Positions 4,774 to 48,579 of a stretch of 48,579 nt of DNA are shown piece after piece (within the stretch, counting starts at the first letter, position 1; each line of letters starts with the position of its first letter). The translations under genes were made by a program, and so were the position numbers. The notes under the pieces are model-generated. The model was not told the origin of the DNA. It saw only the letters and a list, made by a program, of their open reading frames with translations, and ran no database searches. This DNA comes from Planctomycetota bacterium (GTDB taxonomy: Bacteria; Planctomycetota; Phycisphaerae; Sedimentisphaerales; Anaerohalosphaeraceae): NCBI GenBank assembly GCA_019456225.1, contig VRUI01000033.1:1-48579 (forward strand), read 5' to 3'.

Positions 4774-5147
4774 GGGCTTTGGAACCACGAATGGACACTA
4801 ATGAACACTAATTAAAAAAGGAAAAGAATTTATCCGCGGATTTCGAGGCGTGTTTTTACCATGAAGATAATGAAGAAAAAAACATGAAGATCATGAAGGA
4901 AAAGAAGATAAAAAAAGGCAGAAGTTGGTGTTGTGGGAGTTTTAATGTAACTTATTGTTAGGTAAAGAATTGCGAAATTTATTATTAAAAAACGCGCATA
5001 AAAAACAAGGAGTTGCAAGATTGTAGTACTAATTAAAAAAAGAATTTATCCTCGGATTTTTAAGAATTTTTTTATTTTATTTGTAATATTTCGGGTTTTG
5101 GTGAGACTATAGTAATATATGAATGATTTTTTACCTGGAGTTTTGAT
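4774..5147. other. AT-rich intergenic region with repeats
   Basis: No supported gene. It contains two copies of an AATTAAAAAAAGAATTTATCC-like string, ATGAAGATCATGAAGG-type repeats at 4861-4905, and one copy (4921-5028) of a 108-bp dispersed repeat also present at 12391-12498. Confidence 0.65.
4921..5028 (+). repeat. 108-bp dispersed repeat, copy 1
   Basis: Aligns without gaps to 12391-12498 with about 12 differences (near 89% identity by eye). Both copies lie in spacers next to ATGAAG-rich strings. No inverted ends are visible; function unknown. Confidence 0.85.
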
Positions 5148-12234: not shown

Positions 12235-12615
12235 AATTCGGATTCTTAATTAACCATGAAGACCGTGGAGCAGCATAGCCGCAACCAAAAGAACTTAACC
12301 GCGGATTTCGCGGATTACGCGGATTAAAAAACTAAAAACTTTGCCACAGAGAGCACAGAGGGCCACAGAGAAAAAAGAGAAAAAAAGATAGAAGTTTGTG
12401 TTGCGGGAGTTTTAATGTAACTTGTTATTAGATAAAGAATTGCGAAAGTTGTTATTGGAAATCGCGCATAAAAAACAAGAAGTTGAAAGATTGTAGTATG
12501 AAGATAAAGGCATGAAGGTCATGAAGAAAAGATAATTAATTAGGGAACGCCTTCGGCGATGCTTTTTTCTACCGTATTAGTAAATGATATATTTTGATGT
12601 TGTGAAAGTTTTTTT
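12235..12615. other. Intergenic spacer with stacked repeats
   Basis: No gene. Contains AACCGCGGATTTCGCGGATT (12299), GCCACAGAG repeats (12341-12370), the second copy of the 108-bp repeat (12391-12498), an ATGAAGGTCATGAAG string and a CGCCTTCGGCG palindrome. Confidence 0.7.
12391..12498 (+). repeat. 108-bp dispersed repeat, copy 2
   Basis: Ungapped match to 4921-5028. The conserved blocks include GGGAGTTTTAATGTAACTT and CGCGCATAAAAAACAAG. Confidence 0.85.
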
Positions 12616-13359: not shown

Positions 13360-13613
13360 CTCAAACTGGCCTTTGGTGTAACCATTCACAGTTTTTTTTG
13401 ACAGGATTACAGGATAAAAAAAAGATTATGAAAAGATCATAGCCTGTGTTTATACGGTTTATAATAAAATGGGATTTTGAATTTTGGTAAAGATAAGGTA
13501 GAAGTAAAACGAAAAGTTAAAAATTTATAATCATCCTGTTATCCTGTCAAAAAAGAGAGCTTAGAGTGATTAACAGGAAAACCCGTGAACGGTTACCCTT
13601 TGGTCAGTTTGAG
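13360..13613. terminator. Hairpin after scpB, split by a MITE in its loop
   Basis: CTCAAACTG at 13360-13368 and CAGTTTGAG at 13605-13613 are perfect inverted repeats starting one base after the scpB stop. Removing the MITE and one target copy restores CTCAAACTGGCC-TTT-GGTCAGTTTGAG, a 12-bp stem with a 3-nt loop. There is no T run after it, so terminator function is inferred. Confidence 0.6.
13378..13596. mobile_element. MITE-like element, short copy (219 bp)
   Basis: Ends are inverted repeats GTAACCATTCAC and its partner (reverse of GTAACCGTTCAC), with a second inverted pair inside (GACAGGATTACAGGAT and ATCCTGTTATCCTGTC). It is flanked by an exact 8-bp direct repeat CCTTTGGT at 13370-13377 and 13597-13604. 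It carries no ORF. The interior matches the 474-bp copy at 25935-26408 apart from two internal blocks missing here. Confidence 0.9.
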
Positions 13614-25934: not shown

Positions 25935-26408
25935 GTAACCGTTCACAGTTTTTTTGACAGGATTACAGGATGAAAAAAAGATTATGAAAAATCATGTCAA
26001 TCCAAAAGAAATATTATTACTTGCGTAAGGTTAAAAATGCTGTATAGCGAACTGACATAAAAGATCATAGCCTGTGCTCATACGGTTTATAATAAAATGG
26101 GATACTGAAATCAGTTAGTAAAATTGTTAATCTCTTACAAATGAAATTGTGCGCTAGATGGTCACAAAATATTAATGCCTGAGCTTGACTTAATACTCGC
26201 CTGTTTGGTTCAGGCCAGGCCTGATTAAGGCACATGAAATTCAATTGGCCAATTTCTCGTTAGTACCGACAAGCCTGTCGGCCTGATTTTGAATTTTGCC
26301 AAAGATAAGGTAGAAATAAAACGAAAAGTTAAAGATTTATAATCATCCTGTTATCCTGTCAAAAAAGAAAGCTTAGAGTGATTAACAGGAAAAATCGTGA
26401 ACGGTTAC
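25935..26408. mobile_element. MITE-like element, long copy (474 bp)
   Basis: Perfect inverted ends GTAACCGTTCAC and an exact 8-bp target duplication AAGAAAAA at 25927-25934 and 26409-26416. The left and right parts match the 219-bp copy at 13378-13596. Two extra internal blocks (roughly 25992-26062 and 26107-26280) are present only here, so the short copy is probably a deletion derivative. No ORF of transposase size. The right end is 10 bp before the start codon of the next gene. Confidence 0.9.
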
Positions 26409-33223: not shown

Positions 33224-33331
33224 CTAAGCTGCTGGGTTATGAGAATCCGCATTCTTCTTGACAAACGTTTCATTGATTTCAACAAGTTCAGCAACCTGTT
33301 TTTCAAGTTTCGTCCTCAAGTTTGCCAACAC
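33224..33331 (-). pseudogene. Short coiled-coil fragment, possible gene remnant
   Basis: The minus strand reads LANLRTKLEKQVAELVEINE then TFVKKNADSHNPAA and stop. This heptad-like, charged sequence looks like the end of a real protein. There is no ribosome site, and a stop lies shortly upstream. It may be a truncated gene or chance. Confidence 0.25.
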
Positions 33332-33461
33332 GATTATTATAGGACAAATTTAGGCCTTTGCTTGAGATAAATATTGACATACCACCTTGAGTATGCTACC
33401 ATTCATCAAGTTTGAAATGGGCATTTTGACATTGAGTGCGTTGCTCAATACGCTCAAAATT

Positions 33462-33476
33462 CCCGTGAACGGTTAC
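33462..33476. mobile_element. Solitary MITE end
   Basis: CCCGTGAACGGTTAC is identical to the right end of the 219-bp copy. No matching left end or target duplication is seen nearby, so it is a truncated copy. Confidence 0.6.
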
Positions 33477-33534
33477 GTTTTTTGCTGTTTTGGCTATACT
33501 GGTAAACAGTTTTACACTTTTAGGAGACATTATA

Positions 33535-35937
33535 GTGTTTAGATTTCACATCTTTATTGCTGTTATTTTTGCTAATATTGCTTCAGCCAACAGTCTAACC
33601 GCAATTGAGCAGGATTGGCTCCTGCGGGAGAAATATCGACCCGGAAAGGATTCTAAGGCCCTCACTGATGCGAAAAACTGCTCCAAACGCATTGACGAAA
33701 TCGCCGATTATTGTCAAAAGCAAATAGATTCACTAGCCCAGCAGAGCACTGACGTCAGCCAATACAAACAAAATCTAAAACAGCTTTTAGCATCAGAAGG
33801 GCATACAACCCAGGATTTTTTCAGAGCAAAGCGTTTGCAGCGAAAACTCACCCTCGCCGACGAAGCTTTCGACTTTGATGACATTCTCTTCGTAAAACGC
33901 AAACCCGGCTGGTTCAATCATATGTCCGACCAGTACTTCGGCTGGTGGTCAAGACCCGGCGGCGGCATATACATACTTCGCGATTTTAAAAGCGACGATC
34001 CGCAAGAGTATTGCATCACAGATTCATTCACCGCCCAGGGCAGTTTCCTTCGGCCCGCTATCTCATACGACGGCAAAAAAGTACTCTTCGCATGGTGCAA
34101 ATATTACGAAAGATTAGCAGGCAAACAAACCGGACGTTTCAAATACGCACTCGGCGAACAAAACAAGTTCGACAAAAGCAATGTCCCCGAAGACGCCTTC
34201 TACCACCTTTACGAAATGAACATCGACGGCACAAACGCAAAACGTCTTACAAGCGGCAAGTACGATAACTTCGATGCAAGATACCTGCCAGACGGCAAGA
34301 TAGTATTCCTCTCCACACGTCGCGGCCATGCCGTCCAGTGCGGACTCGACAGCGCAACCCGCACAATGGAACAAAACGATCTGCCCGACGTCTACGTCCG
34401 ATGCGGCGGCGGCCTAAGTCGCCCCTGTGCCGTCTATACCCTCCACACCATAGACGCCGACGGCAAAAACCTAAACGCAATATCTCCCTTTGAGATGTTC
34501 GAATGGACCCCGAGCCTCACCCCAGATGGCAGAATCCTTTATTCACGCTGGGACTACATCGATCGCTGGAACAACCCCTACATGAGCCTCTGGTCAATAA
34601 ACCCCGACGGCACAAACTCAAAGCTCGTCTACGGCAACTACACCATTTCACCGCATTGCACCTTCGAGCCAATGCCAATACCAAACTCAAATAAGATCAT
34701 CTTCACAGCCTCGGCCCACCACGCACAGACAATGGGATCGCTGGTACTGCTCGACACATCCATAGGCACCGAAGGCGCCGACCCCATCACAAGATTAACA
34801 CCCGAAGTAGTCTTCCCCGAAGCCGAAGGCTGGCCAAAAACATTCTACAAAAACCCATGGCCCCTCTCCGAAAGATTCTACCTGACAGCATGGTCCAATG
34901 AAGGCGACATGAAGGCCCAGGACTGGGACGTAGGAGAAAACACCCTAAGAGCACCGAACGGAATGGGCATATACGCATTCGATGCTCAAGGCAATATGGA
35001 AATGATAACAAGGGACCCCGAGATCGGCTCTGTCACACCGATACCACTAAGAAAAACCACCCCGCCGGCAAAGATACCCAGCAAAGTAGATTGGCTCGGC
35101 CCAAAAGAGGGCACCATGTTCGTAAGCGACGTCTACCGCGGCCTCAAAACCGTAAAACGAGGCGACATAAAAGCAATCCGCATAATCGCCGTCCCGCCAA
35201 AGACTCACCCGAAAATGCACTACCCGCCGATCGGGCTGACAAGAGATGACCCCGGCAAATGCGTCCTCGGAACCGTCCCCGTAGAACCAGACGGCTCAGC
35301 CTATTTCAAACTCCCCGCCGGCGTAATAGTATTCTTTCAGGCACTCGACAAAAACGGCATGGCTGTCCAGACAATGCGAAGCGTAACATACGTCCAGCCC
35401 GGAGAACAAGCCGGCTGCATTGGATGCCACGAACCACGCCATCAGGCCGCACCTGTTAAACGTGTCGTCGACGCCGTAAAACGCCTGCCATCACAAATAA
35501 CCCCGGGCCCAAGCGGATCATGGCCACTGCGATTCGACAAATTGGTTGGCGGCGTAATAGAAAACAACTGCAAAAGCTGCCACAACCCAAAAAGCAAAAA
35601 TATCGCCGCGGCAAAATTCGACCTGACCGAACAAAAGGCATACGAAACACTCGTAAACTACGGCAAACCAAGCCTGAAAGATAAGGTAAACGAAAAATAC
35701 AAAAAGGGCTATTCCGTAGAAGGCGACTGCATGGCAATGACAAGCGCGGTCCTGAAAAAAATAAACGACAAAAAGATCCACCCGGACCTGTCCCTCAACG
35801 CCGAAAGCACCAAAAGGCTGATAATCTGGATGGACAGCTATGCCCAAAAAGCAGGGTCATTTAGCGAAATACAGGAAAAAGAGCTACTTGAGATCAAAAA
35901 ACGCTGTCAGGACCTGTCAATAACAAGCATAAAATAA
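33535..35937 (+). CDS. Exported TolB-like propeller / HzsA-like / di-heme cytochrome c protein
   Basis: An 800-aa exported protein. GTG 33535 has AGGAG 8 nt upstream and opens a signal peptide (FRFHIFIAVIFANIASANS). Residues about 170-480 are TolB/PD40-type blades (LTSGKYDNFDARYLPDGKIV, FLSTRRG, PSLTPDGRILYSRWDYID). The next part (about 480-620), with PPIGLTRDDPGKCVLGTVPV and DGSAYFKLPAGVIVFFQALD, resembles the middle domain of hydrazine synthase alpha. Two c-type heme motifs follow: C628-I-G-C631-H and C679-K-S-C682-H. Homologues of HzsA are widespread in non-anammox planctomycetes and their role is unknown. A periplasmic redox or sensing role is inferred. Confidence 0.85.
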   Translation: MFRFHIFIAVIFANIASANSLTAIEQDWLLREKYRPGKDSKALTDAKNCSKRIDEIADYCQKQIDSLAQQSTDVSQYKQNLKQLLASEGHTTQDFFRAKRLQRKLTLADEAFDFDDILFVKRKPGWFNHMSDQYFGWWSRPGGGIYILRDFKSDDPQEYCITDSFTAQGSFLRPAISYDGKKVLFAWCKYYERLAGKQTGRFKYALGEQNKFDKSNVPEDAFYHLYEMNIDGTNAKRLTSGKYDNFDARYLPDGKIVFLSTRRGHAVQCGLDSATRTMEQNDLPDVYVRCGGGLSRPCAVYTLHTIDADGKNLNAISPFEMFEWTPSLTPDGRILYSRWDYIDRWNNPYMSLWSINPDGTNSKLVYGNYTISPHCTFEPMPIPNSNKIIFTASAHHAQTMGSLVLLDTSIGTEGADPITRLTPEVVFPEAEGWPKTFYKNPWPLSERFYLTAWSNEGDMKAQDWDVGENTLRAPNGMGIYAFDAQGNMEMITRDPEIGSVTPIPLRKTTPPAKIPSKVDWLGPKEGTMFVSDVYRGLKTVKRGDIKAIRIIAVPPKTHPKMHYPPIGLTRDDPGKCVLGTVPVEPDGSAYFKLPAGVIVFFQALDKNGMAVQTMRSVTYVQPGEQAGCIGCHEPRHQAAPVKRVVDAVKRLPSQITPGPSGSWPLRFDKLVGGVIENNCKSCHNPKSKNIAAAKFDLTEQKAYETLVNYGKPSLKDKVNEKYKKGYSVEGDCMAMTSAVLKKINDKKIHPDLSLNAESTKRLIIWMDSYAQKAGSFSEIQEKELLEIKKRCQDLSITSIK

Positions 35938-35996: not shown

Positions 35997-36052
35997 TTAG
36001 CTCCTTTAATTCTCACTTTTTTGAAAAAAATTTGTTTTTTTAGTGTTTTTCC

Positions 36053-36082
36053 TTGACATTTTACTGATTATTATGCTAAATT
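36053..36082 (+). promoter_or_regulatory. Candidate promoter of the first paralogue
   Basis: Perfect TTGACA, 18-bp spacer, TAAATT preceded by an extended -10 TG. It lies 350 bp before the gene, so a long leader would be implied. Confidence 0.4.
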
Positions 36083-36256
36083 AGTTTCATTGGAGGGTTC
36101 TGTTATTAGAAGGGTTTGATGGATGTTTGTTATTTCTTTCAATTTTATAAAGTTATTCATTTACAATATGCCTGGCATGTTGGGATACCTTTCTTCACCT
36201 TTCTTCACCAACTGATAAAGCTTCCCAGTTGTTTGAAAATTGGCTTCCCAGTTTCT

Positions 36257-36313
36257 CTCTACCTGTCTGTTACTGCTCCATAGATCTGCCCACTTGTAAA
36301 AATATATTAGTTT
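36257..36313 (+). repeat. Leader repeat, copy 1
   Basis: CTCTACCTGTCTGTTACTGC...ACTTGTAAAAATATATTAGT matches 37189-37246 except for a few central bases. Both precede genes of the paralogue array. Confidence 0.8.
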
Positions 36314-36438
36314 TTGGTTGGTTAGATAAATTTAGTTCGTATTTAGGCTGGGCCTGCGTGGGGCCAGCATTGTCACACTTGAGGTTTGGGTTGGTTACTT
36401 AAACCTCGAAAACTTTATTTTTTTTGAAAGGAAGAATG

Positions 36439-37119
36439 ATGAAAAAGACAATTGTATTACTGGTAGTAGCAGTAGCGGGATTGGTTCTCGCACTGGCACC
36501 GGCCGCACAGGCGGGCCTTCTCGATTGGACTAGTTCCATAGATGGCGGTTACCGTATCGCCTTTGTCACGGAAACGATGTCAATCGCGACTTCGACGGAC
36601 ATTACTACGTACAACACCACCGTAGCCGACGACGCCGCTGGGTCAACGTTGCTGGACGCCCTCGGCGCTACATGGAACTGCATCGGCTCAACCGAGACCG
36701 TCTCCGCGAAGGTAAACACCGGCACCACACTCACCGACGGCGGCGCAACTGACGTCCCGATTTACACGCCGGCCGGCGTCCTGTTGGCGACGGGTAATGC
36801 TGACCTGTGGGACGGGACCATATTAGCACTCATGGCCCGCCGGGATGGCACAGCGATAGACTACATCTACAGGGCATTTACGGGTTCGGATAATGACGGA
36901 ACCCCCGCGACCTCAGGCGATGGTAGACAACTTGGGACTTCCGGTCCCGTTTCGACGCGAGGAAACGATCCTCTAAACGGATGGTTACGTGGGGACTCGT
37001 CAGGGAACACCTCCCCGAACCGTCATCTCTTTGCTATGTCCGAGCCGATCCCCGAACCCGCAACGATGTTGCTTCTGGGTCTTGGCGGAATGATGCTTCG
37101 CAGACGCAAACGTGCGTAA
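36439..37119 (+). CDS. PEP-CTERM exported protein, paralogue A
   Basis: A 226-aa exported protein. Residues 1-25 are a signal peptide (KKTIVLLVVAVAGLVLALAP). Residues 26-200 form a domain shared, almost unchanged, with the two following genes (start LLDWTSSIDGGYRIAFVTET, end SPNRHLFAMS). The C-terminus is a PEP-CTERM signal: PEPATMLLLGLGGMMLRRRK, in which PEP, a helix and a basic tail direct exosortase-dependent sorting. No exosortase gene is in the window. AGGA lies 6 nt before ATG 36439. The shared domain's function is unknown. A strong terminator follows. Confidence 0.88.
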   Translation: MKKTIVLLVVAVAGLVLALAPAAQAGLLDWTSSIDGGYRIAFVTETMSIATSTDITTYNTTVADDAAGSTLLDALGATWNCIGSTETVSAKVNTGTTLTDGGATDVPIYTPAGVLLATGNADLWDGTILALMARRDGTAIDYIYRAFTGSDNDGTPATSGDGRQLGTSGPVSTRGNDPLNGWLRGDSSGNTSPNRHLFAMSEPIPEPATMLLLGLGGMMLRRRKRA

Positions 37120-37157
37120 TTGACGCATAGACAATAGAATAGATTAGATTATCCAAG

Positions 37158-37187
37158 GGGCGCACCCTTGCGGGAGCGCCCCGGATT
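37158..37187 (+). terminator. Intrinsic terminator of paralogue A
   Basis: GGGGCGC-A-CCC-TTGC-GGG-A-GCGCCCC hairpin followed by GGATTTTCTC, 38 bp after the stop. Confidence 0.8.
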
Positions 37188-37188
37188 T

Positions 37189-37246
37189 TCTCTACCTGTC
37201 TGTTACTGCTCCAAAGTTGCGGACACTTGTAAAAATATATTAGTTT
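37189..37246 (+). repeat. Leader repeat, copy 2
   Basis: See the copy at 36257-36313. It begins within the T run of the paralogue A terminator. Confidence 0.8.
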
Positions 37247-37459
37247 AAAGTACTAAGTTGTTTTTTAGTTATTTAGTGCGATTCATTAGAGTTGGATCGT
37301 GTCATATATCGACCTGAATATCCAGGCGATAACTTATTAAGCGTTATATCTCTTTTTGGCGATTATGTCAGGAATCAATAAAAGAGGGCGCGTGTTGATA
37401 GATAAAGGATTTATAATTGTATGTTTTTAAAATGAAATGTTTTTGAAAGGAGAATCACA

Positions 37460-38842
37460 ATGATGAAGAAGAAATTGTTTTCAATTGTATTACTGGTATT
37501 AGCCGCACTTCTATTCACACTGGCACCGACCGCACAGGCGGCCCTTCTCGATTGGACTAGTTCCATAGATGGCGGTTACCGTATCGCCTTTGTCACGGAA
37601 ACGATGTCAATCGCGACTTCGACGGACATTACTACGTACAACACCACCGTAGCCGACGACGCCGCTGGGTCAACGTTGCTGGACGCCCTCGGCGCTACAT
37701 GGAACTGCATCGGCTCAACCGAGACCGTCTCCGCGAAGGTAAACACCGGCACCACACTCACCGACGGCGGCGCAACTGACGTCCCGATTTACACGCCGGC
37801 CGGCGTCCTGTTGGCGACGGGTAATGCTGACCTGTGGGACGGGACCTCATTAGCACTCATGGCCCGCCGGGATGGCACACCGATAACCGAGACCTACAGA
37901 GCATTTACGGGCACGACTCCTGACGGAAGCAGCATGACCGCAGGCGATGGTAGATATTTGGGGTTCGTCGGCGATGTCCGTTCGACGCGTGGAAATGATG
38001 CTCTAAACCAATGGATAGGTGCGGACTCGTCAGGGAACACCTCCCCGAACCGTCATCTCTTTGCTATGTCCGGTGTAATCGGCGGCGGCGGATTTAATTT
38101 CGATCCTACACCGGCAGACGGCGCTTCCGTTCCTGCAGCTGATCCTTTGGCATTGAGTTGGGCGAATCTGCCAGAGCCCAATAGTGTGGCTGATACCATA
38201 TCGGTCGAGGTCTTTTGGGACACGGGCGAAGCGGGTGACGACGAATCCCAGTCCCTGACACTGCTCACTTCAAATTCGACTGAAGTGACATCCCCTGGCA
38301 TTGGGACATTTCACTGGAAGATCGTTGCTACTGATCCGAACACTGGCTACGTGCCTGTTGTGACAGAGGCTGTTTACTCGTTAACAACTACAAGTACCAA
38401 TGTGGCGCCAAGCGTCAATATCGACGGTGGTGATAGAGTTGCATGGTTTACAGATGGCATTATTTCGGTCCCGATTACCAGTGTGGTTACGGATGCGGAC
38501 GGGCCCGATGCCCTTTCGTATGAGTGGTTTGTTGACGACGTGCTTGTCGCAGGCGAGACCACAGATAGCATCGACCTGACCGAAGCAGACCTGGACGTAC
38601 CACTACTCGGTGCAACCAATGTATACGCAGTGCGGTTGGAGGCCTATGACGGTGAGGCCACCGGTGAAGATACGGTGACGATTACTGTCTATGCTGATGG
38701 TTGTGAAGCTGCTAAGGGTGAGGCCCCTGAGTACACTGAAGCTATGGCTCGAGAAATAGGCGATACGAACTATGACTGTGCAGTTAACTTAGTTGACCTT
38801 GCTGCTATGGCATTAAACTGGCTGACTGATGAATCACTCTAG
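37460..38842 (+). CDS. Exported modular protein with dockerin-like end, paralogue B
   Basis: A 460-aa exported protein. After a signal peptide (about 1-27) comes the same 175-residue domain as in paralogue A. Next is a fibronectin-like domain (about 208-305, FNFDPTPADGASVPAADPLA...VEVFWDTG) also present in paralogue C and the LamG gene, and an Ig-like domain (about 312-425, VAPSVNIDGGDRVAWFTDGI). The end has one dockerin-like calcium repeat, GDTNYDCAVNLVDLAAMALN then WL. GGAG lies 7 nt before the ATG. The protein ends in a dockerin-like unit where A ends in PEP-CTERM, so the same first domain is delivered by different anchors. Confidence 0.88.
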   Translation: MMKKKLFSIVLLVLAALLFTLAPTAQAALLDWTSSIDGGYRIAFVTETMSIATSTDITTYNTTVADDAAGSTLLDALGATWNCIGSTETVSAKVNTGTTLTDGGATDVPIYTPAGVLLATGNADLWDGTSLALMARRDGTPITETYRAFTGTTPDGSSMTAGDGRYLGFVGDVRSTRGNDALNQWIGADSSGNTSPNRHLFAMSGVIGGGGFNFDPTPADGASVPAADPLALSWANLPEPNSVADTISVEVFWDTGEAGDDESQSLTLLTSNSTEVTSPGIGTFHWKIVATDPNTGYVPVVTEAVYSLTTTSTNVAPSVNIDGGDRVAWFTDGIISVPITSVVTDADGPDALSYEWFVDDVLVAGETTDSIDLTEADLDVPLLGATNVYAVRLEAYDGEATGEDTVTITVYADGCEAAKGEAPEYTEAMAREIGDTNYDCAVNLVDLAAMALNWLTDESL

Positions 38843-38871
38843 TCTAGTTTGTTTTAGTTTTTAGAAGTTTT

Positions 38872-38908
38872 CAGCCGGGAGTTGCTTTTGTGACTCCCGG
38901 CTTTTTTT
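38872..38908 (+). terminator. Intrinsic terminator of paralogue B
   Basis: AGCCGGGAGT/ACTCCCGGCT hairpin with a T run. The same hairpin with its 35-bp left flank is duplicated at 46637-46705. Confidence 0.9.
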
Positions 38909-38909
38909 C

Positions 38910-38938
38910 TTGACAATGTGCAATCCGTCATGTATACT
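38910..38938 (+). promoter_or_regulatory. Promoter of paralogue C
   Basis: Perfect TTGACA, 17-bp spacer, TATACT, 75 bp before the start codon and directly after the paralogue B terminator. Confidence 0.8.
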
Positions 38939-39012
38939 AGCGTGATGATGGATGAAAGTTTTTATATAGTATGTTTTTTAAATGAAAAGTTTTTGAACGG
39001 AGAATCACAACG

Positions 39013-42000
39013 ATGAAGAAGGAATTGTTTTCAATTGTATTACTGGTATTAGCCGCGTTGGTGTTAGCACTGGCCCCGGCCGCACAGGCGGCCCTTCTCG
39101 ATTGGACTAGTTCCATAAATGGCGGTTACCGTATCGCCTTTGTCACGGAAACGATGTCATTCGCGACTTCGACGGACATTACTACGTACAACACCACCGT
39201 AGCCGCTGATGCCGCTGGGTCAACGGAGCTGAACGCCCTCGGCGCTACATGGAACTGCATCGGCTCAACCCAGGCCGTCTCCGCGAAGGTAAACACCGGC
39301 ACCACACTCACCGACGGCGGCGCAACTGACGTCCCGATTTACACGCCGGCCGGCGTCCTGTTGGCGACGGGTAATGCTGACCTGTGGGACGGGACCATAT
39401 TAGCACTCATGGCCCGCCGGGATGGCACAGCGATAGACTACATCTACAGGGCATTTACGGGTTCGGATAATGACGGAACCCCCGCGACCTCAGGCGATGG
39501 TAGATATCTTGGGTTCGCCGGCAATATCGTTTCGACGCGAGGAAACGATCCTCTAAACGGATGGTTACGTGGGGACTCGTCAGGGGACACCGCCCCAAAC
39601 CGTCATCTCTTTGCTATGTCCGGTGTAATCGGCGGCGGATTTGATTTCAATCCTAATCCGGCGGCCGGCGCTACCGTTCTTGCAACTAATTCTTTGGATT
39701 TGAGTTGGGCGAATCTGCCAGAATGCAGTGATCCGAGTGATTCCGCATCGGTCGAGGTCTTTTGGGACACGGACATAAATGGTAACGACGAAGACCAGAT
39801 CCTGATACCGGAAGTGTCCACTCCAAAAACGGTTAATGTGTCAGCCCCTGGCATTGGGACATATTACTGGAAGATCGTTGCTACTGATCCGGGCACGTCT
39901 AGTGTTCTGGAAGAGGCTGTTTACTCGTTAACAACTACAAGTAACAATGTGGCGCCTGTTGTTAATGCTGGGTATGGTGTAGGTGCGGATGATCTTTTTG
40001 CATTTCTGACCGAAGGCATCGTAGGCGTACCCGTTGCAATGGACGCATCTGTTGACGATCCTGGAGACACTACAGTTAACAGTTGGGCAGTTACGAGTCC
40101 AGCCGAAGTTGTCGATCTTCCGACGTTTGACGTTCCGGTAGACCCTCTTGGTGCAGGTGTAAATGTAAATGTAAATGTTACTTTCTACGAAGCCGGCATT
40201 TATACTCTAACTTTGACCGCGAACGACGAAGAAGCAGCTCCGGTAAGCGACAGTTTGGTAGTTACTGTTTATGCTGATGATGTTATTATTACTGAAACCG
40301 ACAGCTCCACCGTTGTGGCAGAAGGAGAATCCGCTTTTGATACTTACACCATTGTCCTGAACACCCCGCCGGATTACAGCGTAACTGTCACCGTTGATCC
40401 GGATGCCCAGACACAAGTCAATAACAACGGCGCGGGCAACCCCGAAGATTTGACTTTCACCACCAGCAACTGGGGCACACCGCAGACTGTTACAGTCAAG
40501 GCCATCGACGACAGCAATCAGGAAGGTGCCCATTTCTCGACGATTACGCACACCGCCGTCAGCACCGATCAGGGCTACAACAACATCAGTATCGCCAACG
40601 TGGAAGTTGCCATTGCAGACGACGATACACCCAGCCATGACATCAACGAGACCGGCGGCTCACCCGACACCGCCGACAGCACTGTTACCTTTAATGAGAT
40701 AATGTACCACCCGGCCCCTGAGACGGACCAAACGCTGGAATGGGTTGAATTTTACAATCAAATGGCTGTTGACGTTGATATGTCCCAGTGGAGACTCTGG
40801 GGCGGAATCGATTTTGATTTCCCACAAGGTACTGTTGTCGATGGAGGTGGTTTTTTGCTTCTGGTCAGTTTTGACCCTGAAAACGAACCTGCCATGGGGG
40901 AATTTGAGACGGCCTATGGTGCGATTCCAGGCGGCACTATAGTAGTTGGTCCTTTTACCGGGCAATTAAATAATGGCGGTGAAGAGTTACGGCTGCGTAA
41001 TGTCAGCAGCAGGCTTATGGACGTGATCGATTATCGTGACGGAGGCGACTGGCCGGTGGCGCCGGACGGCTCGGGTGTATCGCTTGCTAAGCTTGAACTG
41101 AACTACAACGGCTCGTCAGCGGCAAGTTGGAGCTGGAGCGAACAAATTGGCGGCACACCGGGTGCATATAATTTCTCCCTTGCGATACCAGCCAAACTTG
41201 CTTTTAACGAAATTGCCTCTGCCCAGACGCCGGACTTCTGGAACGAGATAGTTAATTATGATGATCAGTTTATTGATTTGCTTGGCTATGTGCTGACCTG
41301 TGCCGGCTTTACTGACGCGGAATATACTTTCCCGGCTCAACCTACCAGCCCTGGCGATTATCTGGTTTATAATGAAGCAACGATTGGTTTTCAACCTGCC
41401 GATGAAGACAAGCTGTTTTTGTATGCTCCCGGTAAGACTTCGGTAATTGACGCTGTCAGGGTTAAGAATTCACATCGTGGCAGATTTCCTGACGGCATGG
41501 GTGGTTGGCTATATCCTGATTTTGTAACGAAGTGGCTCGCAAACAGTTTCGATTTCAGTGATGAAATTGTTATTAACGAAATCATGTATCATCCCCGCAT
41601 AATATCTGAAGCACCGGCAACCTACGGACCTCCGACTATATTGGTAGCTTCTGGAGCGACAGCCAAAACATTTGTGCCAAGCGACGGTAGTCTGGGACTG
41701 ACCTGGACTGGTGGAAACGAATCTTTCAACGATACAGGCTGGACGCACGGCACAGGAAGCACCACCGGCATCGGATACGACACGGAGACAACATACGACG
41801 ATTTAATTAACACGGATCTAAAGGCTTTGATGTACACCCATAAGAACTCTTTTTACACTCGCATTACCTTTAGTGTCACCGACCCGCAGACAATTGAAAT
41901 ATTAAATCTCAAGATGAAATACGATGACGGTTTTGTCGCTTACATCAATGGTGTTGAAGTCGCCAGAAGAAATTTTATTGGCTCACCTGCCTGGAATTCC

Positions 42001-45000
42001 CGTGCCTCCCAGCACCCTGACAATGTTGCCCAGATATTTGAGCCAATCGATATATCCGCTTTTATCAATGTTCTCCAACCGGGTGAAAATATTCTTGCGA
42101 TTCACGGAATGAACATGACTGGCTCAAGCTCTGATCTTCTGATGGTACCGGAACTGGAAATATTGTGGCAACTGACCCCGCATATCCCGGGCGGTGAATC
42201 GCCGAAAGCCTGGATCGAGCTTTATAACAAAGGCGGCTCTGCGGTAACTCTTACCGACTGGAAGATAAGGGGAGGGATAGATTTTGACTTCCCGACCGAT
42301 ACGACCATCGCGGCAGGAGGGTATCTGATAGTTGCTGAGGACGCCGATTATGTCAAGGCCCTTTATCCCGATATCAGCAGCATTGTTATAGGTAACTTCA
42401 GTGGAAATTTGTCTAATAAAGGTGAGCTTATAATCCTCAAAGACGCCAACAATAATCCGGCTGACCAGGTACATTATTTTGATAGCAGTCCCTGGCCCAA
42501 GTTCGCAGACGGAGGAGGTTCGAGCCTGGAACTGCGCGACCCGTATGCCGATAATTCCAGCCCACAGGCCTGGGCCGCCAGTGACGAAACAGACAAGGCT
42601 GGCTGGAACACTTATACATATACAAAATCATGCTCGTCAAGTATAGGACCCGATTCGGTGTGGAACGAATTTATTTTGGGATTACTGATGAGCGGTGAGG
42701 TGCTCTTGGATGACATTAGTCTTACCGCATATCCGAGCGGGGCCGAACTGATTTCAAACGGCACATTTGAAAGTGACACTATCAACAGTGAGCCTGCCGA
42801 CTGGCGAATCATAGGCAACCATCATAGTGAAATAATTATTGACCCGGATGACGGCGGCAATCAGGTCCTGCATCTAACTGCCAATGGATCAACCGAGCAT
42901 ATGCACAACCATGCTGAGATCACTCTTAGCTCCGGTGTAAGCAACGGCACTCTGTATCAGGTTTCTTTCCGTGCCAAGTGGTTGGGCGGTTCTAACCAGG
43001 TTAACACCCGTGTATGGTTCAACCGATTAGCTAAAACAACACTTATAGATGTCCCGCACCCATCCACTACCTGCACGCCCGGCGCTCAGAACTCGCAATA
43101 TGAAAGTAACATGGGCCCGACTCTTAGCAAACTGGCTCACAGCCCTGCTGTCCCTGCCCCATCTGAACCGGTTACTGTTTCTGTAATCACCGAGGACCCG
43201 GACGGCACCGCAATACCAATGCTTTATCGTAGCATAAATGGCGGATCATGGACCAGCGATCCTATGAGCCATCAGGGCGACGGCCTATATACCGGAACAA
43301 TTCCCGGACAGTCTGCCGGAAGCAAGGTGCAGTTCTACATCGAGTCACCTGATCTGCTTGGAGCAAGATCATACTGCCCAGCTGGCCAAGAGAACTCACG
43401 AGCAATGTATGAAGTTGACAATGGTGAGGCGTCCGGCAGCTACAGCAACAACTTCCGTATTATTATGACAGATACCGATGAGACCTTACTACACACCCCG
43501 ACCAATGTTATGAGTAATGACAGACTTGGGGCCACCGTTATCTATAACGAAGAAGAAGTGTTTTACGATGTCGGCGTCAGACTAAAAGGCGGCGAACGAG
43601 CACGAAATGTTAATAGATGGGTCGGGTTCAGCGTGAAATTCAACAGTGACCATCTTTTCCGAGGCATCCATCAGAAAGTGGCTTTAGACCGCAGCAATTG
43701 GGGGAGGTATGGCGTTGCACATGATGAGGCTTTCGCCAAGCACCTAAGCGCACACGCCGGCGGTATTTACTGGCCACTGGATGATATCGTACACTTGATT
43801 GCACCTAGCGATGCACATAACGGCTCTGCCATAATGCAAACGGCACGAAACGAAGATGTGTTTCTCGATGCACAATTTGAAGATGGCAGTGATGGGCAAC
43901 TGTTCGAATATGAACTGATATATTTCATGAGAGATGCAGATCCAGCCACAGGCATTAAGCTACCATCCGGTTCTGGTGGTGACGGCGTAATTGGTGTGGA
44001 CATCCGGGACCTCGGTGACGATAAGGAGAATTACCGGTGGATATTCCTGATCAAAAATAACCGTGCCAAGGACGACTACAGCCAACTGATAGAATTCGCT
44101 AAAACATTCAGCCTTTCTGGTTCGACCCTGCAACAGCAGGCGCCCATAACAATGGATGTTGATAACTGGATGCGAACATTCGCGATGCAGTCACTGCTTT
44201 GTGTAGAAGATTCTTACACACGTGGCTACCAGCATAATCTCAGAGTATATATCCGTTCGACCGATCAGAGGACATTGGCTTTTCCGTGGGACTGGGACGG
44301 ACTGCTCCGTTCATCCACAACTGGCCCTCTGTGGGGCGGCAGTAATTTACAGAAAATTATTGAGTTGGCTCCTAATCGAAGGATGTTCTACGGTAATATG
44401 CTTGACATAATCACAACTACGATGAACTCAGCTTACCTGAACACCTGGGGCAATCACTTCGGGAATTTAGTGGGTGATAATTACAGCTCTTGTATTAACG
44501 GGTTTACAGACCGGTCGAACTATGTACAAACGCAACTGCCGACGCAACGAAAACATTTTGTGATAACCGATGCAGATTTTTCGGTAGCTGCCGACAACGC
44601 TGTTATTCATGGCCAAGCTTCTATTGATGTTAAAGATGTTTATATTCAGGGCAGAGACGACCCCCTGGAATTATCCTGGACACACAGCGGCTCCGGAACG
44701 GGTCAGCAGTTCCAATGGACTGCCACTGTACCGCTCGAACCGGGCGTGAACAGTCTTGTCTTTGAGGCTTATGATTATCAGGGCTATCTTATTACTATCG
44801 ACACGATTACAGTAACCAGTACTGTTTCGCAGCGGCCGTTGCGCGATAATTTGCGTGTGACTGAATTGATGTACAATCCAATCGATGGCAGTGATTACGA
44901 ATATATCGAACTGCTCAATATAGGCATAGTTGCGCTGGACATCAGCAATGTATTTATAGCTGATGGAGTGGTTTTTGATTTTGCGACCAGTACGGTCAGC

Positions 45001-46530
45001 AGTCTTGCCCCTGGCGAGTATGTTGTTGTCGTCAGAAACCAGGCTTTCTTCGAGGCGCGTTACGGAAACGGAATTAATATTGCCGGTGAATTTACCTCTG
45101 GAAAGCTCAACAACGCCGGCGAACGTGTCCAACTGCGTGCGGCCTATTCCGGCTACAATACCGATATTTTTGATTTCTCTTATAACGACAGTAGAGGATG
45201 GTCCTTGGCTGCCGACGGACCGGGCCATTCATTAGTGCCGGTCACAGGCGCTATAGCTGGTCAGGATCTTGGCACAATGGATTACGGCGCCAATTGGCGA
45301 GCAAGCACATATATAAATGGTTCACCAGGCCAAGCTGATCCTGCGCCGGTAACGGACATTGTTATAAACGAAATCATGGCCCATACCGATTACGCTATCC
45401 CACCGCACGTTTCGAACGACTGGATCGAATTATACAATACCACTGATTCTACTGTTACATTGACAGCCGGCCAATGGTATCTAAGTGACGACGATAATGA
45501 CCTGACCAAATGGCCCGTTCCTGCAACAGTTATACCCGCTTACGAAAGGGTTGTTTTTGATCAGGTAACCGGCTTTAATCAGGACGGCACGGGGCCGGAA
45601 GGTTTCGGTCTGAATAAACTCGGCGAGAAGGTTTATCTTTCTTATCTGCCCGGAGACTCCAGCGACCGCATGGCTGATGTTGTGGAGTTTGAGGGACAAA
45701 CCAATTCAGCTTCATTGGGCAGATACCCCGATGGTGACAATTATCTTGTTCATATGGCACCGACACGTGATGCTGCCAATAGCTCAGCTATTGGAAATAT
45801 TGTCATCAGCGAGTTTATGTACAACCCGTTGACCGGCGCCGGTGAGTATATTGAATTGTGTAACCCGACATCGTCACCAATAGTCCTTTATGATGATACT
45901 TCTACAGTCAATACCGGCTGGCGGCTCAACAGCGCTGTCTCATATTCATTCGCAAGCGGCGTTACTTTGCCGGCTTACCAATGTTTGCTTGTGGTTGACT
46001 TTGATCCCGGCGACCCTGGCCTGCTCGCTGCTTTTGAAGCTGATTACGGCTCTACCAGTGGTATTCAAGTTTTCGGCCCTTACATTGGCGGCATGGATAA
46101 TCGCGGCGAACGTCTTAGTCTGGAAAAACCGCTGGAGCCGGATAATCCTGGCGACCCTATGGGGTGGGTGATTGTTGACGAAGTGATTTATTTGGATCTG
46201 TGGCCCTGGCCGACAGAAGCCGATGGAACCGGGCAATCCCTGACACGGATTGATACAAGAGTGTCAGGCAATAACCCGGATAACTGGCAATCAGCCGAGG
46301 TATCGCTGGGAAGCCATTCTGTTTTAACTGCCGATTTCAGCGGTGACGGCAATATTAATCTTATCGATTTTTCTATGTTTTCAAAAGCCTGGTTGAGCAA
46401 TGAAGGTGAGTTGGGTTTTGACCAGAAATATAACCTGGCACAACCGGCGGATACTGTTATCGACATAAATGACCTGTTAAAATTTGCCGAAGAGTGGCTT
46501 AACGGAGCAAATGATTTGCCTGTCGAGTAG
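39013..46530 (+). CDS. Giant exported protein: shared domain, lamin-tail domains, CotH kinase-like domain, dockerin, paralogue C
   Basis: A 2505-aa exported protein. In order: signal peptide (1-27); shared domain (28-205); fibronectin-like domain (about 208-305); PKD/Ig-like domain (about 310-425); a Calx-beta-like repeat (about 430-545, SVTVTVDPDAQTQVNNNG); lamin-tail domains starting near 561, 731 and 854 (NEIMYHP); a CotH kinase-like region (about 1485-1850) with VGVRLKGGERARNVNRWVGF and PWDWDG; three more lamin-tail units near 1946, 2116 and 2263; and a two-part dockerin (DFSGDGNINLIDFSMFSKAW and DTVIDINDLLKFAEEWL). Lamin-tail/CotH proteins are typical giant surface proteins of planctomycetes. 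The CotH region may phosphorylate proteins. GGAG is 10 nt before the ATG. Confidence 0.9.
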   Translation: MKKELFSIVLLVLAALVLALAPAAQAALLDWTSSINGGYRIAFVTETMSFATSTDITTYNTTVAADAAGSTELNALGATWNCIGSTQAVSAKVNTGTTLTDGGATDVPIYTPAGVLLATGNADLWDGTILALMARRDGTAIDYIYRAFTGSDNDGTPATSGDGRYLGFAGNIVSTRGNDPLNGWLRGDSSGDTAPNRHLFAMSGVIGGGFDFNPNPAAGATVLATNSLDLSWANLPECSDPSDSASVEVFWDTDINGNDEDQILIPEVSTPKTVNVSAPGIGTYYWKIVATDPGTSSVLEEAVYSLTTTSNNVAPVVNAGYGVGADDLFAFLTEGIVGVPVAMDASVDDPGDTTVNSWAVTSPAEVVDLPTFDVPVDPLGAGVNVNVNVTFYEAGIYTLTLTANDEEAAPVSDSLVVTVYADDVIITETDSSTVVAEGESAFDTYTIVLNTPPDYSVTVTVDPDAQTQVNNNGAGNPEDLTFTTSNWGTPQTVTVKAIDDSNQEGAHFSTITHTAVSTDQGYNNISIANVEVAIADDDTPSHDINETGGSPDTADSTVTFNEIMYHPAPETDQTLEWVEFYNQMAVDVDMSQWRLWGGIDFDFPQGTVVDGGGFLLLVSFDPENEPAMGEFETAYGAIPGGTIVVGPFTGQLNNGGEELRLRNVSSRLMDVIDYRDGGDWPVAPDGSGVSLAKLELNYNGSSAASWSWSEQIGGTPGAYNFSLAIPAKLAFNEIASAQTPDFWNEIVNYDDQFIDLLGYVLTCAGFTDAEYTFPAQPTSPGDYLVYNEATIGFQPADEDKLFLYAPGKTSVIDAVRVKNSHRGRFPDGMGGWLYPDFVTKWLANSFDFSDEIVINEIMYHPRIISEAPATYGPPTILVASGATAKTFVPSDGSLGLTWTGGNESFNDTGWTHGTGSTTGIGYDTETTYDDLINTDLKALMYTHKNSFYTRITFSVTDPQTIEILNLKMKYDDGFVAYINGVEVARRNFIGSPAWNSRASQHPDNVAQIFEPIDISAFINVLQPGENILAIHGMNMTGSSSDLLMVPELEILWQLTPHIPGGESPKAWIELYNKGGSAVTLTDWKIRGGIDFDFPTDTTIAAGGYLIVAEDADYVKALYPDISSIVIGNFSGNLSNKGELIILKDANNNPADQVHYFDSSPWPKFADGGGSSLELRDPYADNSSPQAWAASDETDKAGWNTYTYTKSCSSSIGPDSVWNEFILGLLMSGEVLLDDISLTAYPSGAELISNGTFESDTINSEPADWRIIGNHHSEIIIDPDDGGNQVLHLTANGSTEHMHNHAEITLSSGVSNGTLYQVSFRAKWLGGSNQVNTRVWFNRLAKTTLIDVPHPSTTCTPGAQNSQYESNMGPTLSKLAHSPAVPAPSEPVTVSVITEDPDGTAIPMLYRSINGGSWTSDPMSHQGDGLYTGTIPGQSAGSKVQFYIESPDLLGARSYCPAGQENSRAMYEVDNGEASGSYSNNFRIIMTDTDETLLHTPTNVMSNDRLGATVIYNEEEVFYDVGVRLKGGERARNVNRWVGFSVKFNSDHLFRGIHQKVALDRSNWGRYGVAHDEAFAKHLSAHAGGIYWPLDDIVHLIAPSDAHNGSAIMQTARNEDVFLDAQFEDGSDGQLFEYELIYFMRDADPATGIKLPSGSGGDGVIGVDIRDLGDDKENYRWIFLIKNNRAKDDYSQLIEFAKTFSLSGSTLQQQAPITMDVDNWMRTFAMQSLLCVEDSYTRGYQHNLRVYIRSTDQRTLAFPWDWDGLLRSSTTGPLWGGSNLQKIIELAPNRRMFYGNMLDIITTTMNSAYLNTWGNHFGNLVGDNYSSCINGFTDRSNYVQTQLPTQRKHFVITDADFSVAADNAVIHGQASIDVKDVYIQGRDDPLELSWTHSGSGTGQQFQWTATVPLEPGVNSLVFEAYDYQGYLITIDTITVTSTVSQRPLRDNLRVTELMYNPIDGSDYEYIELLNIGIVALDISNVFIADGVVFDFATSTVSSLAPGEYVVVVRNQAFFEARYGNGINIAGEFTSGKLNNAGERVQLRAAYSGYNTDIFDFSYNDSRGWSLAADGPGHSLVPVTGAIAGQDLGTMDYGANWRASTYINGSPGQADPAPVTDIVINEIMAHTDYAIPPHVSNDWIELYNTTDSTVTLTAGQWYLSDDDNDLTKWPVPATVIPAYERVVFDQVTGFNQDGTGPEGFGLNKLGEKVYLSYLPGDSSDRMADVVEFEGQTNSASLGRYPDGDNYLVHMAPTRDAANSSAIGNIVISEFMYNPLTGAGEYIELCNPTSSPIVLYDDTSTVNTGWRLNSAVSYSFASGVTLPAYQCLLVVDFDPGDPGLLAAFEADYGSTSGIQVFGPYIGGMDNRGERLSLEKPLEPDNPGDPMGWVIVDEVIYLDLWPWPTEADGTGQSLTRIDTRVSGNNPDNWQSAEVSLGSHSVLTADFSGDGNINLIDFSMFSKAWLSNEGELGFDQKYNLAQPADTVIDINDLLKFAEEWLNGANDLPVE

Positions 46531-46639
46531 CACTGAAAGTGATGCTCGAGTATTAGGCGATACGAACTATGACTGTGAAGTTGACTTAGCTGACTTTGCT
46601 ATTATGGCATCTAACTGGATGTCTGATGTATCAAAATAG
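46529..46639 (+). pseudogene. Dockerin remnant after paralogue C
   Basis: In the frame one base off from the C stop codon the DNA reads GDTNYDCEVDLADFAIMASN then WMSDVSK and stop. It is close to the end of paralogue B (GDTNYDCAVNLVDLAAMALN), with the DNA around GGCGATACGAACTATGACTG conserved. It has no start and looks like the left-over 3' end of a B-type gene. Confidence 0.75.
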
Positions 46640-46705
46640 TCTAGTTTGTTTTAGTTTTTAGAAGTTTTCAGCCGGGAGTTGCTTTTGCGACTCCCGGCTT
46701 TTTTT
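46637..46705 (+). terminator. Duplicated terminator
   Basis: Repeats the 3' flank and hairpin of paralogue B (38839-38908) almost base for base; AGCCGGGAGT/ACTCCCGGCT then seven T. Confidence 0.85.
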
Positions 46706-46728
46706 AACTGTATGCGTAGCACACCGGA

Positions 46729-46977
46729 GCAAGCCCAGAAAACATCGACCTGACCTGGACCGAAACCGGTGAACACGTAGTGCTGTTGACGGCCTTTGAC
46801 GGTCTGGCCACCGGTGAAGAAACGGTGACGATAACCGTCTACGAGGATTCGTGCGAAGCTGCAAAGGGAGAAGACCCAGAGCTGCCACTGCAAAGCGATT
46901 TCAATGAAGACTGTATCACCGATCTCAAAGATTTAGCGATACTTGCAGCCCAATGGATTGTGAACACTGCACTGTAA
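46729..46977 (+). pseudogene. 3' fragment of a fourth paralogue
   Basis: Reads ENIDLTWTETGEHVVLLTAF then DGLATGEETVTITVYEDSCE and a dockerin-like DFNEDCITDLKDLAILAAQW before TAA. The match to the end of paralogue B (EAYDGEATGEDTVTITVYAD) is clear, but there is no start, signal peptide or upstream domain. Confidence 0.75.
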
Positions 46978-47025
46978 GTACAAGTACCGTAATGCTTTCC
47001 TGTTTGCAGGGGTATTGAATACAAT

Positions 47026-47062
47026 GGCCGGACGCCGATCGTGATGTGGCGTCCGGCCTTAT
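47026..47062 (+). terminator. Intrinsic terminator of the fourth-paralogue fragment
   Basis: Perfect 11-bp stem GGCCGGACGCC/GGCGTCCGGCC followed by TTATATTTG. Confidence 0.8.
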
Positions 47063-47446
47063 ATTTGTTTGTGGAAAGCTCTGAACCACAAGTTGGTGAT
47101 TTCTTTAATTATCTCGGTGCAGACGATTGTCCGCCGCAGCATCCGGATGCAGTGGTTCCATTTCTGCTTGACAAGCGCATGAGGTCGCAAATGAATGCTG
47201 TTTTAAATAGATATTATTTCAAAGAGGTTAATAATCAGTGTTTATGGCAGCAAAAATGGAGATTTACTCAAAAAAAGTACCGGACCCCTTAATTTTCCCA
47301 AAAATACCGACAAACGGAATGCCTCAAAGACGAAAAAAAATTATATCCTTGACTTTGCGTCAGAATATTGGTAAATTAAGAATGCGTCAGTCTGGTGGCG
47401 TACTCCAGACTTGAAAGAAGTGGATAATCATTCAGAAGGTGAAAAG
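47063..47446. other. Intergenic region with decayed sequence and promoter
   Basis: An open stretch to about 47292 looks partly protein-like, but no family is recognised and no ribosome site is present. A TTAATTTTCCCAAAAATACC string at about 47289 resembles TTAATTTTCCCAAATACC near 24396. The promoter at 47349-47377 follows. Confidence 0.5.
47349..47377 (+). promoter_or_regulatory. Candidate promoter for the LamG gene region
   Basis: TTGACT, 17-bp spacer, TAAATT, about 70 bp before the first small ORF and about 275 bp before the LamG start. Confidence 0.55.
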
Positions 47447-47575
47447 ATGCAATCGCACTTACTAAGTCATATCCCACCAGAGATGGTTTCTTTCGAGAAC
47501 AATCAGGGTGTCCAGGTTTGTTGCCAGGGCGCATCTAAACTTACTTTTTTTGAGAAGGGGAAATGTTATGTGTAA
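47447..47575 (+). CDS. Possible 42-aa leader ORF
   Basis: Starts MQSHLLSHIPPEMVSFENNQ and ends FFEKGKCYV. AAGG lies 7 nt before the ATG. It contains three cysteines and no hydrophobic segment. It overlaps the next small ORF and lies between a promoter and the LamG gene. No family recognised; may be non-functional. Confidence 0.3.
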   Translation: MQSHLLSHIPPEMVSFENNQGVQVCCQGASKLTFFEKGKCYV

Positions 47576-47654
47576 AAGACTGTTTTATTTAATTTCTTGT
47601 GTTTTGGTGTGTAACCAAAACGCGGTCGTTTTTAATGATGGAGGTATGTTATGA
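47568..47654 (+). CDS. Possible 28-aa hydrophobic leader peptide coupled to the LamG gene
   Basis: Reads MCKRLFYLISCVLVCNQNAV then VFNDGGML and TGA. It looks like a signal peptide cut short. GAGAAGGGG lies about 7 nt before the ATG. Its stop overlaps the LamG start as ATGA, so ribosomes could pass directly to the next gene. It could be a regulatory leader or the debris of a lost exported gene. Confidence 0.35.
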   Translation: MCKRLFYLISCVLVCNQNAVVFNDGGML

Positions 47655-48579
47655 AGAAGTTAATAATTTTAGTTTTAGTTTTGAGTCTTTGTGGTGTGGT
47701 TCAGGCAGCTCTGGTTTCCCAATGGAAATTTGACGGCGGCCTGACCGACAACGTCTGGACCAATGACGGCACCGCGGAAGGCGACGGTACACTCAGCTAC
47801 ATCTCTGGGGCACCCTATGGTGCCGACCCCAGTGGTCAGGCGGCTCATTTTGACGGGGACGTGTGGGTAAACGTGGGCAATGATGCCTCCCTGCAGCCGG
47901 CGACGGCTATTTCCTTTACCGCCTGGATCAAGGTGGAAAGGGAGCTTTCGGATTGGTGGCAGACTATCTATCGCAGGCCCGGTGATGGCAATACCCGCAT
48001 ATTATTTGACGTAGGCACCTGGGGGGGCGATGAAGGCCTCTGGATTGGTATTGGGACCCCGGACGGCTATGTCGAGATGGTTGGAACCGTAACCGATGCC
48101 CAGATGCGGGATGGCAACTGGCATCTGGCCGTAGGAACATACGACAGCAGTGTAAGCGGTCAGGACAATATGTTCCTCTACTGGGATGGTCAGGTTGTAG
48201 GAAGTGGGGAGCACAGCGGTCTCATGGTCACGGACAGTACCGAGGACGCTAAGATTGGTGCGTATATCCCAAGTTATCTTGAACCGTTCAACGGTGGTAT
48301 CGACGATCTCCGCGTCTATGACCATGCGCTTTCGGCAGCGGAAGTCGATGCGCTCTTCCTCCGCGGCGGCGGATTTGATTTCGATCCTACACCGGCGGAC
48401 GAGGCTACCGTTTTAACATCAGCTGTTCCTATGGCTTTGAGTTGGTCGAATCTGCCACCAGATCCCTGTAATGTGGCTGATTCCACAGAGGTCGATGTCT
48501 GGTGGGACACGTTAGAAGATGGTAGCGGCGGAACCCAGGTCCTGACAGAATCGCCCGAGGCACTAACGGTTGATGTGAC
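47651..48579 (+). CDS. Exported LamG-domain protein (partial, runs off the window)
   Basis: The first 309 codons of a longer gene. Signal peptide KKLIILVLVLSLCGVVQA, then a LamG/concanavalin-like domain (about 20-235) with WKFDGGLTDNVWTNDGTAEG, ISFTAWIKVE, DGNWHLAVGTYD and the closing FNGGIDDLRVYDHALSAAEV. From about 238 starts FDFDPTPADEATVLTSAVPM and DVWWDT, the fibronectin-like domain also found in paralogues B and C. GGAGG lies 6 nt before the ATG. LamG domains bind glycans; a polysaccharide or surface role is likely. The end is not in the window. Confidence 0.9.
   Translation, partial: MKKLIILVLVLSLCGVVQAALVSQWKFDGGLTDNVWTNDGTAEGDGTLSYISGAPYGADPSGQAAHFDGDVWVNVGNDASLQPATAISFTAWIKVERELSDWWQTIYRRPGDGNTRILFDVGTWGGDEGLWIGIGTPDGYVEMVGTVTDAQMRDGNWHLAVGTYDSSVSGQDNMFLYWDGQVVGSGEHSGLMVTDSTEDAKIGAYIPSYLEPFNGGIDDLRVYDHALSAAEVDALFLRGGGFDFDPTPADEATVLTSAVPMALSWSNLPPDPCNVADSTEVDVWWDTLEDGSGGTQVLTESPEALTVDV

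Follow-up and report, generated by a model that had tools for sequence, protein, structure and literature searches.

A locus-specific N-terminal module on adjacent PEP-CTERM, dockerin and CotH genes of a planctomycete

Three adjacent genes of a planctomycete draft genome, here called A, B and C, carry one N-terminal domain, X, in front of three different kinds of C-terminus. The trio is probably one instance of a gene set that recurs and that displays in three ways an N-terminal module, specific to each locus and most likely binding the glycan of that locus. The window, that is, the whole stretch of DNA that was analysed (48,579 nucleotides), is the entire contig C78 of this genome, which comprises 4.45 Mb in 152 contigs and is 95.8% complete. 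Contigs of the genome are labelled C with a number and extracted locus stretches L with a number, and the modules are called X (C78), Y (C105), Z and V (C66) and W (C32). Gene A would give a small protein, composed of signal peptide, module and PEP-CTERM, that is handled by exosortase and retained at the surface; gene B would carry the same module on an Fn-Ig/PKD stalk with a terminal dockerin repeat; and gene C would carry it on a large effector, LTD/CotH here and a carbohydrate-active enzyme in relatives. If the module binds the glycan acted on by its locus, the cell surface, the secreted or assembled stalk and the effector would all reach one target. New specificities would arise by recombination of a different module into the conserved gene ends, and the module copies within one locus would be partly homogenised by gene conversion.

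Three genes with one N-terminal domain

Genes A, B and C are real open reading frames and are all on the + strand. Gene A (36439..37119, with in-frame ATGs at 36436 and 36439) encodes a signal peptide, X and a PEP-CTERM tail, which scores 24.9 bits against PF07589 (cut-off 20.7, E 2e-5) and 24.4 against TIGR02595 (cut-off 16); the PEP motif, the hydrophobic stretch and the basic end are all present. Gene B (37460..38842) encodes a signal peptide, X, an Fn-like domain, an Ig/PKD-like domain and a tail made of one dockerin-like repeat (GDTNYDCAVNLVDLAAMALNW), which falls under the Pfam thresholds and is matched by homologues at the same position. The Fn - Ig/PKD - dockerin backbone of B (38084..38839, +) is common, in whole or in part, to C105, C66, C32, C103 and relatives. 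Gene C (39013..46530) encodes a signal peptide, X, Fn, Ig, five LTD stretches, CotH and a GC-type dockerin. The CotH kinase-like domain (44020..44454, +) matches PF08757 with E 6.9e-6 and 26.4 bits against a cut-off of 23.8 in the genome search, and scores 22 bits, under the cut-off, on the whole protein. The dockerin of C has two repeats and scores 20 bits with dockerin_GC (cut-off 29) and 14 bits with Pfam (cut-off 22.9), both under the cut-off. The open reading frames and domain matches bear out the central claim of the initial annotation, namely one N-terminal domain with three different C-termini. It had called these C-termini three anchors; three kinds are indeed present, but the third fits the role of an effector better than that of an anchor, with CotH here and CAZymes in relatives. 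Its statement that the Fn-like domain also occurs in the LamG gene (47651..48579, +; PF13385; cut by the contig end) is likewise correct, the domain at 48360-48547 having 78% DNA identity to gene B. Several contig ends carry this Fn stretch as a near-identical repeat, with 95% identity to C66 and 92% to C105.

The gene directly upstream of the trio encodes an HZS_alpha/PD40 protein with CxxCH-like motifs (33490-35937), and large proteins resembling it are found near dockerin genes on C105 and C80. The nearest CAZyme found to the trio is a GH127 gene (17236-19158), and none directly adjoins it. An Rfam scan of the window gave a tRNA as its sole match. The first half of the window has intergenic DNA repeats of 87-94% identity (13378-13596 with 25935-26408; 4901-5028 with 12371-12498), which are partly present on C47 too. 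A dispersed element of ~160-200 nt has 23 matches in the genome, many of them 94-99% identical. Copies lie at 33246-33477 of the window, L038 2494-2708 (-), L037 3537-3734, L095 9506-9708 (-), L097 2186-2386, L067 6887-7047 (-), L033 4910-5069 (-) and L060 13698-13854. The element adjoins, on the upstream side, the start codons of unrelated genes for CotH/LTD, HZS_alpha-like, PQQ and dockerin proteins and sulfatases, and contains a perfect TTGACA-17-TATAAT and an inverted-repeat-like stretch; it may be a promoter or leader in repeated copies, or else a mobile promoter.

X is a domain of ~177 residues at the N-terminus of A (36517..37041), B (37541..38071) and C (39091..39621), all on the + strand. 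The copies are 83-92% identical in amino acids (A and C against B, 83-88%; A against C, 92%) and 86-94% identical in DNA, with a repeat E value of about 0. The initial annotation described the domain as nearly identical, which agrees broadly with these values but hides a mosaic in which A switches from B-like to C-like. Over codons 26-129, A and B are alike but for about 1 position in 300 nt, while C has 10-11 differences there; past about codon 129, A agrees with C while B diverges. This switch of partner was reached by 1 of 10,000 permutations, and the mosaic indicates gene conversion or recombination among the three genes. The 3' (divergent) half of B's X has a dN/dS of 1.3-2.0, calculated from few sites. 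It is extremely improbable that a repeat collapse during assembly copied X into the three genes. The genome is a draft of 152 contigs, whose ends fall in repeated Fn and CotH stretches, but the X copies differ by 6-14% and have distinct flanks, and genomes of five genera, among them a single-contig one (L182), have the arrangement too.

The DNA match of gene C to B starts 72 nt upstream and extends through the Fn domain (86% identity over 1027 nt), and the protein match continues to the end of Ig. The homology to B stops at a VYAD motif (~40280) and restarts at 46525, and the stretch between (40285..46524, +), which has no counterpart in B, appears to be an insert between Ig and the dockerin tail of a B-like copy. 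Directly after the stop of C, in the +1 frame relative to C, lies a stranded B-type dockerin tail with its 3' region and terminator (46525..46705, +), which is 87% identical over 181 nt to B 38729-38908. A 5'-truncated relic of another Ig-dockerin tail is located at 46762..46977 (+; E 9e-15, 54% identity). The simplest reading is that gene C arose as a duplicate of B that took up ~6.2 kb between its Ig and dockerin parts, the insert being LTD-CotH-LTD-dockerin and bringing a stop of its own.

Conserved backbones with other modules in the same genome

The genome-wide copy count suggested by the initial annotation places X only in A, B and C. Searches with Fn/Ig/dockerin and PEP-CTERM located three further loci that have an arrangement like the trio with other N-domains. 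All three forms are found on C105, where a B-type gene, an A-type gene and a CotH/LTD giant all carry Y. On C66, an A-type and a B-type gene carry Z and a third, B-type gene carries V; on C32, an A-type and a B-type gene carry W. The fifth module, V, is present on the B-type gene of C66 and on a CotH/LTD gene of C10 with 96% DNA identity, and some CotH/LTD genes carry no module. When PEP-CTERM genes are paired with partner genes across the genome, both genes carry the same N-domain in 6 of 7 pairs within 3 kb versus 0 of 173 elsewhere (Fisher 1.6e-10, the pairs not being independent).

The matches between these loci include DNA outside the domains. The region upstream of A with its first codons (36010..36468, +) is 85% identical over 463 nt to C32 (L035 914-1365) and 86% over 134 nt to C105. 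The PEP-CTERM tail and 3' region of A (37045..37182, +) are 91% identical to C32, 86% to C105 and 96% (90 nt) to C66, and the A-B intergenic region with the start of B (37256..37470, +) is 94% identical over 215 nt to C32. In the comparison of C78 with C32, the A genes align over -413 to +45 (85%), have no match in the following interval, and align again over the PEP motif and the 3' region (91%). The B genes align over -203 to +11 (94%), and their similarity resumes at the Fn domain (86%). Against C78, C105 and C66 likewise have matching flanks, here shorter, around a module gap. Between loci, the DNA flanking the N-domain on both sides is 74-98% identical and the N-domain itself has no DNA match; the conserved backbone includes upstream DNA, the signal-peptide start, the PEP-CTERM tail, intergenic DNA and Fn/dockerin parts. 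Non-coding flanks of this similarity would not be expected next to N-domains that had drifted apart past recognition through descent, so that the N-domain was more probably replaced. The N-domain would be the exchanged part, with backbones common genome-wide and N-domains specific to each locus. The initial annotation had proposed a surface module that is shuffled between sorting systems; shuffling has occurred, but in the reverse direction, the N-domain being exchanged into conserved backbones.

Pairwise Smith-Waterman comparisons of X, Y, Z, W and V place nine of the ten pairs near shuffle level. The X/Z score of 60 exceeds all 200 shuffles (mean 38, sd 6), and X and Z may be remotely related. 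Y has no Pfam match, and W resembles a beta-helix surface domain more than a classical CBM. At L034 4533-7511 and 2-1174, a GH127 enzyme next to the C66 cluster ends in a LamG-like domain that resembles, by eye, V of the adjoining B-type gene, which suggests that this module may derive from the enzyme. A transposase-like gene, IS110-like by appearance, lies next to the C105 set (L033 8462-9403), and its terminal 252 nt share 96% identity with C83.

Pairing of the forms in related genomes

At 25 loci, own genome included, a PEP-CTERM gene has a B-type gene no more than 3 kb away; these loci span five genera, and several are orthologous and are not independent events. The N-domain is clearly common to both genes at 20 of these loci and weakly common at three (L117, L125 and L127). 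The two without a common domain, which stand as counter-examples, are L108, where a PEP-CTERM gene adjoins a B gene, and L181, where the genes are on opposite strands. In the single-contig genome of L182, one N-domain is found on a PEP-CTERM gene, on two B genes and on a pectate-lyase-like protein of 1463 aa. Other third partners in relatives are PL11 (L110, L114, L109), GH43 with an arabinofuranosidase-like protein (L115) and DUF5010+CBM35 (L195), and dockerin tails also occur on neighbouring enzymes. The module is CBM96 in L110, L111, L114, L129, L131, L187 and others, and LamG in L130. The Fn-PKD-dockerin backbone is mostly restricted to the family of the window's genome, a group of uncultured planctomycete-like bacteria.

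From the CBM96 and LamG identity of modules, the enzyme partners and the occurrence of X on a GH127 enzyme, we infer that each module binds the glycan of its own locus. The exchange of modules within genes that are otherwise conserved suggests that each cluster is tuned to one target, most likely a polysaccharide. The weakest point is the trio itself, which lies beside CotH, a kinase family, and not beside a CAZyme.

Plain tandem duplication of one surface gene with C-terminal fusions, in which X stayed and the tails changed without any special logic, is close to the initial annotation. The confinement of X to three adjacent genes, the youth of its copies and the fit of C to a duplicated B with an insertion agree with it. 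This reading is nevertheless unlikely. It is already weakened by the recurrence of the A and B backbones with unrelated modules and with conserved upstream and intergenic DNA. In addition, the PEP, dockerin and enzyme forms persist in related species at 37-60% identity, and the orthologous PEP-CTERM proteins of L107 and L121 are 89% identical versus 37% for PEP and B within one locus. Since orthologues are closer than neighbours within a locus, the paired forms are old and retained, and the arrangement outlasts duplication.

The swapping of modules within fixed backbones, together with the dN/dS of B's X, would also suit a surface-recognition or variation system in which the module varies for escape from phage or predators or for kin recognition. 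Against this, the same module class is kept at the same locus among species of one genus (L107/L117/L121; L110/L114) and the third partners in relatives are CAZymes, and such a system is very unlikely.

The recurrent gene set with a locus-specific module, our preferred reading, can be extended to a display scheme for the whole family, although only tentatively and with somewhat less than even confidence. In such a scheme each polysaccharide locus would own one binding module and carry it on three proteins, namely a receptor anchored by exosortase, a stalk with dockerin and an enzyme; new loci would arise by recombining a new module into the A-B(-C) backbone, and the endostatin fold would have been recruited as one such module.

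Predicted fold, sorting and comparison with known systems

Relatives of X are found in Planctomycetota (including Phycisphaerae), cyanobacteria, proteobacteria, Verrucomicrobia and Kiritimatiellota. X is absent outside its own genome among 59 family/order genomes, is present in 5 of 392 phylum genomes, own included, and has no relative in viral contigs. At fourteen loci with relatives of X, seven encode short secreted proteins ending in PEP-CTERM, one has the domain before Fn and one after a GH127 enzyme; the GH127 case is in Kiritimatiellota (L150), and X occurs with Fn in another Phycisphaerae genome. Fifteen members gave no relevant Pfam match up to E 10 and no CBM assignment. X has no match to PDB by sequence; its profile weakly matches FAM3C (E 0.53), and endostatin is not among the sequence matches. 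AlphaFold models were obtained for X (m9558fb4910d3, copy B) and for a relative with 42% identity, and are of moderate confidence (pLDDT 71 and 70, pTM 0.74 and 0.75, respectively). Both models resemble endostatin best, with Z of 12.9 and 12.7 over 149-155 residues, and C-type-lectin-like folds come next with 2.1 and 4.0. X is therefore predicted to have an endostatin fold. Endostatin-like domains may bind protein, and a common fold does not establish function. The Len family of Leptospira consists of bacterial endostatin-like proteins whose laminin binding is competed by heparin (PMC2063517). Like Len, X belongs to secreted or surface proteins of bacteria and is predicted to be endostatin-like; it is unlike Len in having no Pfam model, in the different lifestyle and in its link to PEP-CTERM or CAZyme contexts.

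The genome has three exosortase matches (PF09721), all above the cut-off, so that processing of PEP-CTERM proteins is plausible; gene A would plausibly be processed by exosortase and kept at the cell surface. Cohesin PF00963 has no match in this genome and is found in only 2 of 39 family genomes, leaving the dockerin repeats of B and C without a known partner, although a divergent cohesin may be present. Of the sorting systems in the initial annotation, the PEP-CTERM one is supported, and sorting of the dockerin forms is putative. A cellulosome- or planctosome-like assembly, in which the dockerin forms would dock on cohesins and the PEP-CTERM forms would be incidental, could account for the dockerin tails on B, C and the neighbouring enzymes of relatives. 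The planctosome model of other Planctomycetes combines LTD anchor, cohesin and dockerin, has peptide targets and rests on cohesins (PMC6461901). What the trio has in common with this model is large secreted proteins of planctomycetes that bear LTD and dockerin modules; the trio differs in its lack of a cohesin match and in a CotH/LTD protein that bears a locus-specific module. With so few cohesin matches and a single dockerin repeat in B, this assembly is quite unlikely.

PEP-CTERM/exosortase (EpsH) sorting was described by Haft et al. 2006 (PMC1569441), who note that the tail behaves as a modular domain and has expanded among paralogues. The tail of gene A, the presence of exosortase genes and tails more alike within than between genomes agree with that description; the pairing of PEP-CTERM with dockerin or enzyme genes by the N-domain and module exchange inside conserved flanks go beyond the passages of the paper covered here. 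A literature search found no paper joining 'PEP-CTERM' and 'dockerin', which is weak evidence, as subscription journals were mostly outside its coverage. PEP-CTERM proteins are numerous and mostly without a known role. If an anchored protein and a neighbouring enzyme have a common binding domain as a rule, the targets of many PEP-CTERM proteins would be predictable from genome context. The exchange of modules within fixed backbones offers a clear case of domain swapping in nature, and X forms a bacterial endostatin-like family, by predicted fold, without a Pfam model.

Polysaccharide utilisation loci contain surface glycan-binding proteins and CBM-bearing enzymes, and with the rule of a common binding domain, planctomycete polysaccharide loci would follow a logic similar to that of Bacteroidota surface glycan-binding proteins. 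The gene sets described here are like such loci in that, in relatives, the module is often a CBM and the neighbours are CAZymes, and unlike them in that the anchor is PEP-CTERM and one module class is present on all forms of a locus.
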